A stretch of 64,000 nt of DNA from Sphingomonas alba. Its GTDB lineage: Bacteria > Pseudomonadota > Alphaproteobacteria > Sphingomonadales > Sphingomonadaceae. Positions within the stretch are counted from its first letter, which is position 1. The number at the start of each line of letters is the position of its first letter. The position numbers were made by a program, and so were the translations under genes. Shown in pieces: positions 3,024 through 40,373 of this stretch. The notes under the pieces are model-generated. The model was given only the letters and a program-made list of their open reading frames with translations, was not told the DNA's origin and searched no databases. The stretch lies in assembly GCF_023516555.1 (NCBI RefSeq), contig NZ_JAMGBD010000001.1, positions 372,001 to 436,000 of the forward strand. Reading direction: 5' to 3'.

Positions 3024-3092
3024 ATGGCGGAGATTCGGCGCAATTAGGCGACCTGGCCGTGGAAAGCTGTTAAAAGCACCTATCACGGGCGT

Positions 3093-3154
3093 ACTTATTC
3101 CAAGCAGCTTGTGGCTGAGAGACATGCGCTCCCGCTTGCGGCTGGAGATCGAGC
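3093..3154 (+). promoter_or_regulatory. Shared 5' leader element, copy A
   Basis: Contains TTCCAAGCAGCTTG, then CTGAGAG (3115-3121), a 4-nt gap, the 13-mer GCGCTCCCGCTTG (3126-3138), and the Shine-Dalgarno GGAG (3144-3147) ahead of ATG 3155. The 13-mer is identical in the leaders of the genes at 5719 and 40109 (minus). CTCC at 3129-3132 can pair with the GGAG, so the element may control ribosome access. The CAAGCNGCTTG palindrome upstream is also present in copy C. Confidence 0.55.
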
Positions 3155-3382
3155 ATGGCCACCACCAAACACGCCTCAATGGGCTCAACTGATCGCTGGG
3201 AAAATGACGGCGGCCGAATGCTGCCGGAGCGACCTTTGTTAGACGACCTCCAAATCGAGCTAAAGCGGCACGGGGTAGTACCCGTCCAGCTGATCATGTT
3301 CGATTGTGGCGGCTATCGTTATTCCAACGCCAGGGATGCGATCGCAGCGGCGAAGAGGCTTTCAAGGCCGGTCTCGGAATGA
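3155..3382 (+). CDS. Small protein, 75 aa, GGYRYSNARDAIAAA family
   Basis: A soluble small protein of unknown function. Its C-terminal half (DLQIELKRHGVVPV, FDCGGYRYSNARDAIAAA) is nearly the same as that of the 74-aa protein at 39885-40109, and both begin with RWENDGG or RWENEGG, so they are paralogues. Its stop codon overlaps the ATG of the sensor kinase at 3379 (ATGA), implying translational coupling and a possible role with that kinase. The start is supported by a GGAG site. The 5' leader is shared with two other small genes. Confidence 0.75.
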   Translation: MATTKHASMGSTDRWENDGGRMLPERPLLDDLQIELKRHGVVPVQLIMFDCGGYRYSNARDAIAAAKRLSRPVSE

Positions 3383-4452
3383 TGCGACTTAGCGATCGAG
3401 CGGAAGCGCGAAACCTCGCGCTGGCGATCGTCGATACATTGCCGGAACCGTTCATGGTTTTGGACGAGAAGCTGCATCTTCTGGCCGCCTCACGCTGCTT
3501 TTACGAGGTGTACGGAGAGGATGCGGAGCACGCCCGCGGCCGTTCGCTCTTCGAGCTGTCGAACGGCCAATGGGATATTCCAGGCCTGCGCCAGTTGTTG
3601 CAGGCAGTGGTCCCGGACCATGTCAGCCTGGAAGGATTTGAATTCGAAGGGGCCTTCGGGGAGCTCGGCACGCGCACAATCCAGTTGAACGCCCTTCCGC
3701 TCAGGGAAGAGGACGGCAAGAGCAGGATGGTCCTGCTTGCAATCAAGGATATCACTGCAAGACGCGCAGCCGAGAATGAAAAGCAGCGCCTATTGGAGCA
3801 CACCGAGGAGCTTCTCGAGCAGCAGGGCACCTTGCTGCGCGAGATGCGGCACCGGATCGCAAACAGCCTCCAGATCATCGCCAGTATCCTCCTGCTTAAG
3901 GCGGGTACGGTGACGTCCGAAGAAACCAAGAATGAGCTGCGGGCGGCTCACCAGAGAGTGATGTCGGTGGCGGCCGTTCAAAGCCACCTGCATGCATCCG
4001 ACGGAATCGAGCAGATCGAGATCGGTCCGTACCTGACAAAGCTCGCCACCGGCTTGGCGTCTTCCATGGTCGGCCCGAAGCAGAAGATCGAGATTAAGGT
4101 GGTGGCCGACGCGGGAACGCTCCCCTCAAGCCACGCGGTCAGCATCGGCCTGATCGTGACCGAATTGATCATGAATGCCGTCAAATATGCATTTCCGAAG
4201 CCGCGATCCGCAGCGCGGATCCGGGTCACTTTCGAAAAGGCGGATTTGGATTGGAAATTGACGGTTTCGGACAATGGCGCAGGCCGCCGAGTGCCCGATG
4301 AACCCGCGAGTTCAACAGGCCTCGGAACTGCACTCGTCGCCGCGCTGGCGAAACAACTTGGCGCGTCGGTGTCGGAAGACTCTTCAAAGAGCGGCCTGAC
4401 AGTCGACGTAACGCGCGCAACGTTCACTTCGCGCCTTTCCAATGCGGCGTAA
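3379..4452 (+). CDS. Sensor histidine kinase, PAS plus HisKA_2/HATPase
   Basis: A cytoplasmic 357-aa kinase without membrane segments. A PAS domain occupies about residues 12-125 (LPEPFMVLDEKLHLLAAS to LLAIKDITARR), then a short coiled coil, a HisKA_2 dimerisation domain with EMRHRIANSLQIIASIL (phospho-acceptor His158), and an HATPase with N-box ELIMNAVKYAF and G-box VSDNGAG. HisKA_2 kinases are common in alphaproteobacteria, and several feed the PhyR/NepR/EcfG general stress response; that output is inference here, since no regulator is adjacent. ATG 3379 overlaps the stop of the upstream small gene, so I take it rather than the further upstream in-frame start at 3304. Confidence 0.85.
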   Translation: MMRLSDRAEARNLALAIVDTLPEPFMVLDEKLHLLAASRCFYEVYGEDAEHARGRSLFELSNGQWDIPGLRQLLQAVVPDHVSLEGFEFEGAFGELGTRTIQLNALPLREEDGKSRMVLLAIKDITARRAAENEKQRLLEHTEELLEQQGTLLREMRHRIANSLQIIASILLLKAGTVTSEETKNELRAAHQRVMSVAAVQSHLHASDGIEQIEIGPYLTKLATGLASSMVGPKQKIEIKVVADAGTLPSSHAVSIGLIVTELIMNAVKYAFPKPRSAARIRVTFEKADLDWKLTVSDNGAGRRVPDEPASSTGLGTALVAALAKQLGASVSEDSSKSGLTVDVTRATFTSRLSNAA

Positions 4453-5589: not shown

Positions 5590-5671
5590 TTGGCGCAATC
5601 AGTTAGGTCGGGGGACGTGGTTGTGCTAAGGGTAAGAAATCAGGCGACTTCCGGACAGTGAGCCGTCGCCT

Positions 5672-5718
5672 GGCTGAGAGACCATCGCGCTCCCGCTTGC
5701 ATGTGGGAGTCTTCCGAT
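5672..5718 (+). promoter_or_regulatory. Shared 5' leader element, copy B
   Basis: GGCTGAGAG (5672-5680), 6 nt, the 13-mer GCGCTCCCGCTTG (5687-5699), then GGGAG (5705-5709) and ATG 5719. CTCCC at 5690-5694 is perfectly complementary to the GGGAG ribosome site, with a 10-nt loop. The downstream protein is unrelated to those behind copies A and C. Confidence 0.55.
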
Positions 5719-5880
5719 ATGGATCTCAATTACCTTTATCAGCGTCATCAGATTTCGGTATTCATGTCGGAAAATGCCGTGTGCGAGCGGTCGCGGAAGG
5801 CGCACCGTGGCCTGATGGATGCCTATGCATCGCTGATCGCCAGCGCTCGCCGTGGACGTACTGTAGTCGTTACCCAGTGA
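5719..5880 (+). CDS. Small protein, 53 aa (MDLNYLYQRHQ family)
   Basis: The sequence begins MDLNYLYQRHQISVFMSENA and continues with CERSRKAHRGLMDAYASLIA, ending VVVTQ. From memory, near-identical small proteins recur in sphingomonad genomes, always hypothetical. It is helical and soluble with one Cys. The start is fixed by a GGGAG site and the shared leader. The stop TGA overlaps the GTG start of the next gene (GTGA), so the two are co-translated. At 53 aa it would be missed by many gene callers. Confidence 0.75.
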   Translation: MDLNYLYQRHQISVFMSENAVCERSRKAHRGLMDAYASLIASARRGRTVVVTQ

Positions 5881-6098: not shown

Positions 6099-6323
6099 AT
6101 GGACCGATCCCTATATCTCGACATGCCAGAGGGCGAAGTCGTTACAAAATGCCTCAGCGCCAAGGTCGGCATATCCGTCATCGAGCGCCTTCCCGAGGGC
6201 GGCGTTCGGCTCGTTTGCGCAAGCATGGCGGGCGCTGACATCATGCGCCGAAAACTAAGATCGCGCCTCTTGAAAGGTGACGTCACGAGGACCGCGCTGC
6301 GTCCGGCGGGCCCGATTTGGTGA
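6099..6323 (+). CDS. Hypothetical protein, 74 aa
   Basis: ATG at 6099 has an ideal AAGGAG site 6 nt upstream. The product has an alternating strand/helix pattern: GEVVTKCLSAKVGISVIERL, then a segment ending GVRLVCASMAGADIMRRKL, and a Lys/Arg-rich C-terminus. No membrane segment. It is probably a small alpha/beta protein; no function known to me. It lies 45 bp after the small-gene pair on the same strand, possibly in one transcript. Confidence 0.7.
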   Translation: MDRSLYLDMPEGEVVTKCLSAKVGISVIERLPEGGVRLVCASMAGADIMRRKLRSRLLKGDVTRTALRPAGPIW

Positions 6324-6429: not shown

Positions 6430-6603
6430 TTAAGCAGGCGGCTCGACGGTCGCGTCACCTGATTGATCAGCAAGCTCTCGATATCGCTCGGCCATGGCCA
6501 GATGGATTTGTCGGACCTTGTCCGAAACAGACTGTTCGGCCTGCTTGCGCTCTGCGCGTTCGCGGTTCCGGAAATAGCCTACAGAATTGGATGCCCCGTG
6601 CAT
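6430..6603 (-). CDS. Small protein, 57 aa (YFRNRERAERKQAE type)
   Basis: The start ATG at 6603 is preceded by GGGAG. The product reads MHGASNSVGYFRNRERAERK, then a helix with QIHLAMAERYRELADQ and an acidic tail. Small YFR-RERAE proteins with a following LAERY motif are, from memory, common in sphingomonads and unassigned. An upstream in-frame ATG at 6666 lacks a ribosome site and adds an atypical Arg-rich extension, so it is rejected. Confidence 0.65.
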   Translation of the reverse strand: MHGASNSVGYFRNRERAERKQAEQSVSDKVRQIHLAMAERYRELADQSGDATVEPPA

Positions 6604-6949
6604 GTCCAATCTCCCGTCGCTTGCGTCGCTCCTTCTTCGATCGACGGCGGGACAGGCCGTCCGCATTCAATCGCTTCGGCTCACGTAAAATACAAAAGGT
6701 CTCGATAGGTTTCACGCGGATTCTTGCGTCCGCTTTCCACCCAAAGCTGCCACTGGGTCGCTGCGTCCGTACTCACCCAATCCGGACACGAGGAACTGGC
6801 CATATGGTGATGGTAGGCAGCGCCAACCTGACGTTTTCTCCTAGGTCCCCATCCACGACTTCCCCGATTGGGGCGCCATTACCGTCACGCTAAAACGCGG
6901 TCCGCAGCCGGGGGCCTGTTCGGGGGAGAAAACCTGAACGAGACAATTG
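6604..6949. other. Intergenic region, about 345 bp
   Basis: No convincing gene. It contains one full copy of the interspersed motif (6728-6742) followed by CCAAAGCTGCC, and a diverged GTCC-CCCA stretch up to about 6780. From about 6846 to 6937 a plus-strand frame reads like coding sequence (VPIHDFPDWGAITVTLKRG) but has no start and ends in a stop, so it may be a gene remnant. The 3' end holds the promoter and leader of the transpeptidase gene. Confidence 0.4.
6728..6753 (+). repeat. Interspersed GTCCGCTTTC motif, single copy
   Basis: GTCCGCTTTCCACCC followed by AAAGCTGCCAC. The reverse copy at 39578-39602 matches it at about 24 of 26 positions, which shows the repeated unit is longer than the 15-base core. 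Confidence 0.6.
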
Positions 6950-39884: not shown

Positions 39885-40109
39885 TCAAGCTGATCGGGTA
39901 AGCCGCCTGGCTGCCGCAATGGCGTCACGAGCGTTGGAGTAGCGATAGCCGCCCCAATCGAATGCCATCAACGGGACAGGAGTGATGCCGTATCTGTGGA
40001 GTTCGACTTGTAGGTCGTCGCCACCGGGCAATTGCGGACCGCAGACATGGCCGCCTTCATTCTCCCAGCGGGCTATCGCGATTGGTGATCTTTTCGGTTC
40101 TGAGCTCAT
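39885..40109 (-). CDS. Small protein, 74 aa, GGYRYSNARDAIAAA family
   Basis: Paralogue of the 75-aa protein at 3155-3382: RWENEGG, DDLQVELHRYGITPVPL, then FDWGGYRYSNARDAIAAA. The N-terminal 14 residues differ. A GGAG site precedes the ATG. Its leader is shared with the genes at 3155 and 5719. Unlike the first copy it is not attached to a sensor kinase; a cold-shock-like gene diverges from it. Function unknown. Confidence 0.75.
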   Translation of the reverse strand: MSSEPKRSPIAIARWENEGGHVCGPQLPGGDDLQVELHRYGITPVPLMAFDWGGYRYSNARDAIAAARRLTRSA

Positions 40110-40172
40110 GTTGCACTCTCCTGGCCAAGCGGGAGCGCTTCAGCTCTCAGTCGCAAGCGGCTTGGAAACAAG
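40110..40172 (-). promoter_or_regulatory. Shared 5' leader element, copy C
   Basis: Read on the minus strand: TTTCCAAGCCGCTTG, CTGAGAG (40150-40144), 5 nt, GCGCTCCCGCTTG (40138-40126), GGAG (40121-40118), ATG 40109. Similarity to copy A extends through the TTCCAAGCNGCTTG palindrome. CTCC within the 13-mer can pair with the Shine-Dalgarno. Confidence 0.55.
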
Positions 40173-40373
40173 AAGAGAGCTTGTGATGAGAAAATCATAC
40201 CACGTTTAATTCCAAATAACCTCTAGTACTTTTTCGGTGCTACACTATATGTAAATTGCTACCAGTCGTAATCGACGGTTCTAGGCGCTAAGCCGCTCCT
40301 TTCTCCATCTTTGACGCCTCTTAGCCGCGAGACGGTCAATTTTGACTCCTCGGGTAAAGAAGGACCTTTCACC

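Follow-up and report, generated by a model that had tools for sequence, protein, structure and literature searches.

The 64,000-nucleotide stretch of the Sphingomonas alba genome analysed here (the window) contains three small genes, at 3155 (+), 5719 (+) and 40109 (-), each preceded by a copy of the same leader (Table 1). The products of the genes at 3155 and 40109 are paralogues and that of 5719 looks unrelated to them, as the first-pass annotation of this DNA had it; none of the three has a Pfam match at E<=0.1. The 3155 gene is likely translationally coupled to the histidine kinase gene behind it, given that the ATG of the kinase overlaps the stop codon of the leader gene, and leader copy 1 may therefore also set the level of the kinase. 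Divergent to leader copy 3 lies a gene for a small cold-shock-domain protein (PF00313; 40374-40580, +). Two genes adjoining copy 2 (6099-6323, +, and 6433-6666, -) resemble by eye the leader-associated families MSRAI..RTPL and RERQ hairpin, and neither has a leader-model match of its own.

Table 1. Leader copies, their parts and the genes behind them in the window. R1 and R2 are profile models of the leader; SD, Shine-Dalgarno sequence.
Feature	Position	Strand	Evidence or remark
Leader copy 1, whole element to gene start at 3155	3079..3160	+	R1 49.5 bits, R2 55.7 bits
P1 hairpin, copy 1	3083-3090 with 3107-3114 (3083..3114)	+	8/8 pairs; two adjacent G-U, one terminal U-G
Pseudoknot, copy 1	CAAGC 3101-3105 with GCTTG 3134-3138	+	5 bp; covariation
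Signature CTGAGAG, unpaired, copy 1	3115..3121	+	sequence
Anti-SD CTCC 3129-3132 opposite SD GGAG 3144-3147, copy 1	3129..3147	+	four bases
75-aa protein, WENDGG / YSNARDAIAAA family, no Pfam match	3155..3382	+	stop overlaps next gene's start
PAS + HisKA_2 + HATPase histidine kinase	3382..4452	+	ATG overlaps stop of leader gene
Leader copy 2	5636..5724	+	R1 55.8 bits, R2 60.4 bits
P1 hairpin, copy 2	5640-5648 with 5665-5673 (5640..5673)	+	9/9 pairs
Pseudoknot, copy 2	5658-5663 with 5695-5700 (5658..5700)	+	6 bp, two wobbles
Anti-SD CTCCC 5690-5694 with GGGAG 5705-5709, copy 2	5690..5709	+	five bases
53-aa MDLN-type small protein	5719..5880	+	MDLN is the largest cluster behind the leader
Second small ORF after the 53-aa gene	start 5877	+	GTGA overlap
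Leader copy 3	40104..40190	-	R1 41.5 bits, R2 45.9 bits
P1 hairpin, copy 3	40186-40179 with 40158-40151 (40151..40186)	-	7/8 pairs, one A-C mismatch
Pseudoknot, copy 3	CCAAGC 40165-40160 with GCTTGG 40130-40125 (40125..40165)	-	6/6 Watson-Crick pairs
Anti-SD CTCC 40135-40132 with SD GGAG 40121-40118, copy 3	40118..40135	-	four bases
74-aa paralogue of 3155 product	39885..40109	-	sequence

The leaders are marked by exact copies of the 13-mer GCGCTCCCGCTTG at 3126-3138 (+), 5687-5699 (+) and 40126-40138 (-). The gap between CTGAGAG and the 13-mer is 4, 6 and 5 nt in copies 1, 2 and 3, and that from the 13-mer to the ATG is 16, 19 and 16 nt; the positions and spacings given by the first-pass annotation are thus correct. 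The exact 13-mer occurs only three times in the 2.5-Mb host genome, always inside the window, and a reversed control pattern once. Allowing up to two mismatches gives no enrichment in the window (10 matches against 7.8 expected, with 22 of 100 shuffles as high), so the signal is carried by the exact match and its context. Of 298 genomes of the host's family, 109 contain the composite pattern CTGAGAG-N1-12-GCTCCCGC; its reversed control occurs in 13 genomes, once each, by our own count of the listing. Copies in related genomes, for which the first-pass annotation had proposed a search, are therefore present. A chance 13-mer was rejected on the same grounds, namely only three exact copies in the host and the composite pattern in many genomes against few reversed-control matches.

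The three 13-mers form the 3' half of a structured 5' leader of about 80 nt. Aligned sites share a layout in which a -10-like box is followed by AUCG opening a hairpin, P1, whose loop ends in GTARGC or GCAAGC. The 3' strand of P1 is followed by CTGAGAG, a short linker, GnGCTCCCGC, TTAC or TTGC, the Shine-Dalgarno sequence (SD) and the start codon. The 13-mer is identical in the three copies because an anti-SD (GCTCCC) and one strand of a pseudoknot (GCTTG) both lie inside it. The first-pass annotation had taken the leader for a unit of its own, and its occurrence before unrelated genes bears this out, but the 13-mer alone is not that unit: P1 and the pseudoknot had been missed, and the element is more than an SD hairpin. 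In the copies at L181 and L191, an insertion separates CTGAGAG from GCTCCCGC.

P1 and the pseudoknot are backed by covariation. In a set of 144 pattern-picked sites, thinned by similarity, 93 form all six pseudoknot pairs, against 5.4 expected from shuffling the loop side, and 54 form all eight P1 pairs, against 1.3 expected in shuffles. The letters of the pseudoknot vary in these sites while pairing is kept (GTARGC with GCTTAC, GCAAGC with GCTTGC), and other lineages have other letters that by eye still pair (CAGGCG with CGCCTG, GAGCG with CGCTC, GTGCG with CGCAC). Alignment A1 kept 125 of the 144 sites, 19 having been excluded by eye. Alignment A2 has 72 rows: 69 of the 76 sites with at least 6/8 P1 pairs and at least 5/6 pseudoknot pairs, at one fixed offset, and the three window copies added by hand. 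In A2, 93.5% of cells are paired and 91 double changes are seen against 26 in shuffles, figures biased by selection since the rows were picked for P1 and pseudoknot pairing. Alignment A4 (111 rows, 105 of them distinct, from 92 sources) was found with models that hold the P1 pairs and lack the pseudoknot pairs; some of its rows, those of the window, the host and L167-L192, had also gone into R2. Standard pairs fill 86.9% of the pair cells over the 105 distinct rows; shuffles give 72.8%, none of 500 being as high, and slid controls 25-58%. Double changes number 205 compared with 73 in shuffles, and none of 500 shuffles reached 205. The paired share in A4 is 91.2% for P1, 93.5% for the inner two pseudoknot pairs and 72.9% for the outer four, the two outermost being unpaired in 51 of 89 and 29 of 85 cells. 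Counting the A4 pairs in which at least one double change occurs is not decisive, since the count of 12, against 10.6 in shuffles, is reached by 40 of 500 shuffles. Single-copy minimum-energy folds of the three window copies are no more stable than those of shuffles (z -0.05, -1.48 and -0.06), and P1 is missing from the folds of copies 1 and 3 predicted with no pseudoknot allowed. A further helix of AC with GT beside CTGAGAG was sought by eye and dropped, no consistent compensation being found.

A third pairing, between the anti-SD and the SD, has weaker support. The first-pass annotation had pointed to CTCC opposite GGAG in all three copies, and the pairing is there, over five bases in copy 2 and four in each of the others. 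For partner swaps we pooled 319 leaders with an ORF, of which 277 were left after repeats and rows without the core pattern were dropped. Matches without an ORF had been excluded beforehand (38 of 213 in the first set, 5 of 79 and 5 of 75 in the later sets), ORF starts were picked by a simple SD score, and the first locus set holds some genomes twice. The regular expression for the core requires part of CTGAGAG/CTCC, so core conservation values near 100% are partly so by construction. In the 277 unique leaders, own partners score higher than swapped ones both for the pseudoknot (13.61 against 11.15) and for the anti-SD:SD pairing (14.91 against 14.59), and none of 200 swaps comes up to the own value in either comparison. 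For anti-SD:SD, an earlier set of 222 leaders scored 14.04 with own and 13.64 with swapped partners (0 of 300 swaps as high). Duplex energies agree, at -7.27 against -5.13 kcal/mol for the pseudoknot and -11.91 against -11.47 kcal/mol for anti-SD:SD. The anti-SD:SD signal is small, about 2-3%, with SDs G-rich anyway, and the swapped and shuffled controls leave some relatedness among sequences. The base 3' of GGAG is C in 63 of 122 leaders compared with 94 of 266 other ORF starts (Fisher p = 0.003). GGCGG stands near the start in 15 of the 277 leaders, and ten of these precede ORFs of 32-38 aa, mostly of one family (f167) and one from Bradyrhizobium; here GGCGG opposite CCGCC replaces GGAG opposite CTCC.

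Upstream of P1, the 122 rows of alignment A3 (123 in all) with enough upstream DNA, aligned on P1, have a weak TTG..A around position -35 and, at about -12 to -8, a TATA-like box. This -35/-10-like pattern lies at a fixed distance from P1, and transcription is therefore predicted to begin at the first base of P1. Given that start, the leader would make up the entire 5' UTR of about 75-85 nt, a conclusion that is supported, more weakly than the helices. The general stress promoter recognised by EcfG is GGAAC-N16-CGTT (PMC7083833). Control by a promoter of this type was rejected, as GGAA[CT]-N15-18-CGT[TC] matches none of the 122 leaders in the 60 nt upstream of P1.

The leader is conserved across lineages of the Alphaproteobacteria. 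The host genome has six CTGAGAG-N1-12-GCTCCCGC sites and eight leader copies (R2, E<=1e-3), all eight on the sense strand right before a suitable start codon and seven with downstream products shorter than 80 aa. On host contig C2 (396170-401638) three further copies lie within 5.5 kb, so that copies cluster. A pattern scan of genome contigs gave at least 120 stretches; among the 80 listed, 76 are from sphingomonads and one each from Microvirga, Bradyrhizobium and Methylobacterium. Within the host's family R2 found the leader in 19 of 39 genomes and gave no match in 20, and its distribution there is thus patchy. In a sample of the class searched with R1 at E<=1e-4 under stricter filters, 19 of 337 genomes were positive, including the host and three members of its family. 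A sample of the phylum gave 41 positives among 398 genomes, 39 in the host's class and two outside it, both weak. One of these two (G712, 29.4 bits), with three of its P1 pairs broken and an incomplete pseudoknot strand, was read as chance; the other (G726, 24.8 bits) has two broken P1 pairs, an imperfect signature and a CAGGC that could pair with GCCTG, and is doubtful. At E<=1e-3, 27 leader matches were found in Microvirga tunisiensis Lmie10, some of which may be assembly duplicates given its fragmented assembly, four in a Methylobacterium genome and five in a Bradyrhizobium genome. Six of the 40 genomes drawn as the Microvirga family, Microvirga included, were positive at E<=1e-4. Weak model matches that look false by eye (L180, L183, L184 and L207) are still within the counts given here. 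At some loci (L028, L169/L186, L198/L212 and L203/L215) leaders stand back to back on opposite strands before divergent genes.

Copies also occur outside chromosomes. Searching plasmids with the leader returned five records, four from Microvirga and one from Bradyrhizobium. Two were inspected: one has no annotation at the site, and the other has hypothetical proteins, a response regulator and a SAVMC3_10250 family protein. A plasmid search with the 53-aa protein returned one record, at 72% coverage. Among IMG/VR viral contigs, 25 model matches (E<=1e-3) fall in 22 of the 80 listed loci out of at least 120 pattern stretches; these loci, L398, L400, L372 and 19 others, may represent phage genes or flanking host DNA.

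In several locus sets the leaders end at the start codons of unrelated genes. In the first locus set, 175 of 213 profile matches have an ORF; the largest product cluster is the MDLN small-protein family (73), followed by small families and Crp/Fnr-like regulators (clusters of 8 and 4). The products of the 277 leaders have a median length of 74 aa; 200 are shorter than 100 aa, and most of the 36 with at least 200 aa look Crp/Fnr-like by eye. Sampled products match cNMP_binding, DUF6894, Response_reg and an Xre/MbcA/ParS C-terminal domain, and most of the small products tested match nothing in Pfam or NCBIfam. Tiny proteins dominate. As a description of the putative regulon, the small stress proteins proposed by the first-pass annotation are too narrow, since Crp/Fnr-like regulators, response regulators and DUF6894 proteins also belong to it. 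The Xre/MbcA/ParS toxin-binding C-terminal domain (PF09722) was found in the product of L042, the one member tested of a cluster with L058, L067 and L070. At L206 an MDLN/RERQ-type segment is seemingly fused to a receiver domain (a Response_reg match in a truncated protein at E=0.002, which does not reach the curated cut-off), and at L218 to a longer protein that by eye resembles an acetyltransferase; these fusions hint at a signalling role for the small MDLN/RERQ-type proteins.

The best reading of this element is a new cis-regulatory pseudoknot leader, riboswitch-like in build. It is a conserved structured element with covarying helices, and lies in a 5' UTR if the predicted start is right, features by which riboswitches are recognised. 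We think it probable that the leader, as the whole 5' UTR, controls translation by gating the SD. One suggestion of the first-pass annotation was that an RNA acting in cis masks the ribosome site and is common to a regulon; the occurrence of the leader before unrelated genes in many genomes and the covariation of P1 and the pseudoknot favour that suggestion, with modest support from the CTCC:GGAG pairing. Beyond this, switching itself, the kissing-type stack, which way control runs and what kind of signal acts on it are what we infer. Transcription would start on the first base of P1 (AUCG), and P1 would fold first. Its loop would then pair with the bases just 3' of GCUCCC, giving an H-type pseudoknot, and GCUCCC could pair with the SD (GGAG, GGAGC or GGGAGC). 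With the SD helix and the pseudoknot formed together, the three helices might stack as a kissing-type complex in which the ribosome site is closed. CUGAGAG and the short linker would span the pseudoknot and are the likely sensing site. When the signal binds or is lost, the SD would become free or blocked, and the rate at which the first gene and those coupled to it are translated would follow.

As to the signal, a small molecule sensed directly is our first guess, and a tentative one; a protein or a small RNA comes second. On this tentative view the leader would be a new riboswitch class across the Alphaproteobacteria, sensing an intracellular signal molecule and setting translation of a large regulon, with 27 leaders in one genome. 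That regulon could comprise Crp/Fnr-like regulators, response regulators, a histidine kinase and many tiny proteins. If true, one RNA signature joins many small genes of sphingomonads, Methylobacterium/Microvirga and Bradyrhizobium, and the conserved pocket-like linker together with a reporter-ready SD switch offers a direct handle on the signal of the leader.

A reading less probable than SD gating has a trans-acting small RNA or an RNA-binding protein docking on CUGAGAG and GCUCCC, with the pseudoknot only presenting them. Conserved unpaired stretches common to many unrelated mRNAs would suit such a site, as would 27 matches in one genome and a downstream set in which no biosynthetic genes pointing to a metabolite were noticed. 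However, a small RNA target needs less than a compact pseudoknot kept across lineages. Moreover, all six CTGAGAG-N1-12-GCTCCCGC sites in the host, on both strands, are model matches before ORFs, so that in the host no further locus was seen that would complement both pieces with this spacing; a small RNA matching one piece alone is still compatible with this.

It is improbable that the leader is a fixed 5' element which stabilises the mRNA or gives a constant translation rate and does not switch. 5'-terminal hairpins and pseudoknots can block RNA decay, and the leader begins at the predicted +1. Stability, however, does not need a strongly conserved unpaired CUGAGAG and GnGCUCCCGC, and anti-SD and SD fit their own partners slightly better than swapped ones. 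An RNA thermometer, with the SD opening on warming, would agree with the SD pairing, with downstream genes that look related to stress or signalling and with the cold-shock-domain gene divergent to copy 3. Thermometers rarely conserve unpaired sequence, whereas the leader does, and its SD helix varies by eye from 4 to 8 bp among copies, which makes this reading quite unlikely. A mobile repeat, transcription-factor site or other DNA-level element, to which the multiple and at times clustered or back-to-back copies might point, was already disfavoured and is extremely improbable, as the leader is on the sense strand right before the start codon in 8 of 8 host copies, its base pairs covary and the downstream genes are unrelated. 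A general uORF or attenuator was also rejected: 111 of 277 leaders contain an ATG at any place, and 128 of 277 lack the core GTG.

SD-gating by a pseudoknot leader can be compared with known systems. In Rfam 15 no family matches the window at the gathering score. Scans of 15 loci, three of them the window copies, at E<=10 for L001-L004 and E<=5 for 11 other loci gave one tRNA and eight sub-threshold matches, none overlapping the leader. A known Rfam element was accordingly rejected, the leader being unmatched in the window and the 15 loci. No description of the leader was found among the papers listed by searches of open-licence PubMed Central.

The nearest architecture is that of the SAM-II riboswitch (RF00521). 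SAM-II (the metA element) is alphaproteobacterial and compact, with one stem P1, a pseudoknot and a near-consensus promoter just upstream of P1 (Corbino 2005, PMC1273637). The leader has in common with it the Alphaproteobacteria, compactness, P1 and a pseudoknot at the 5' end of the transcript (here predicted) and a promoter-like pattern next to P1. It differs in its core, CUGAGAG...GCUCCCGC, and in its 27 matches in one genome. SAM-II itself gives no match in the window at the gathering score and none at E<=10 (L001-L004) or E<=5 (11 loci), and no methionine or SAM genes were noticed by eye among the listed downstream ORFs, most of which lack annotation.

The serC element (RF00517) has a promoter directly upstream and a final hairpin predicted to hide the ribosome site, with two stems and one operon type (PMC1273637). 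The leader resembles it in the predicted promoter right before the element and in the predicted hiding of the ribosome site; serC differs in being two-stemmed and before one operon type, and the leader has no serC match in the Rfam scans. The odc1 motif is an alphaproteobacterial 5' element with a hairpin and a pseudoknot, a Sphingomonas example of which was tested by its authors; in its pseudoknot the 5' end pairs with the loop, a uORF is included, and it is named for ornithine decarboxylase (PMC8632094). In the leader, unlike odc1, the loop pairs with a 3' segment. Only 111 of 277 leaders have an ATG within them, and the core reads GTG in 149 of 277 and GCG in the window copies.

Riboswitches for c-di-GMP can be present in many copies per genome before unrelated signalling genes. 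In this the leader is like them, while differing in that it has no match to them in the Rfam scans. Many copies before regulators, rather than before biosynthetic genes, are unusual for a leader RNA and resemble second-messenger control.
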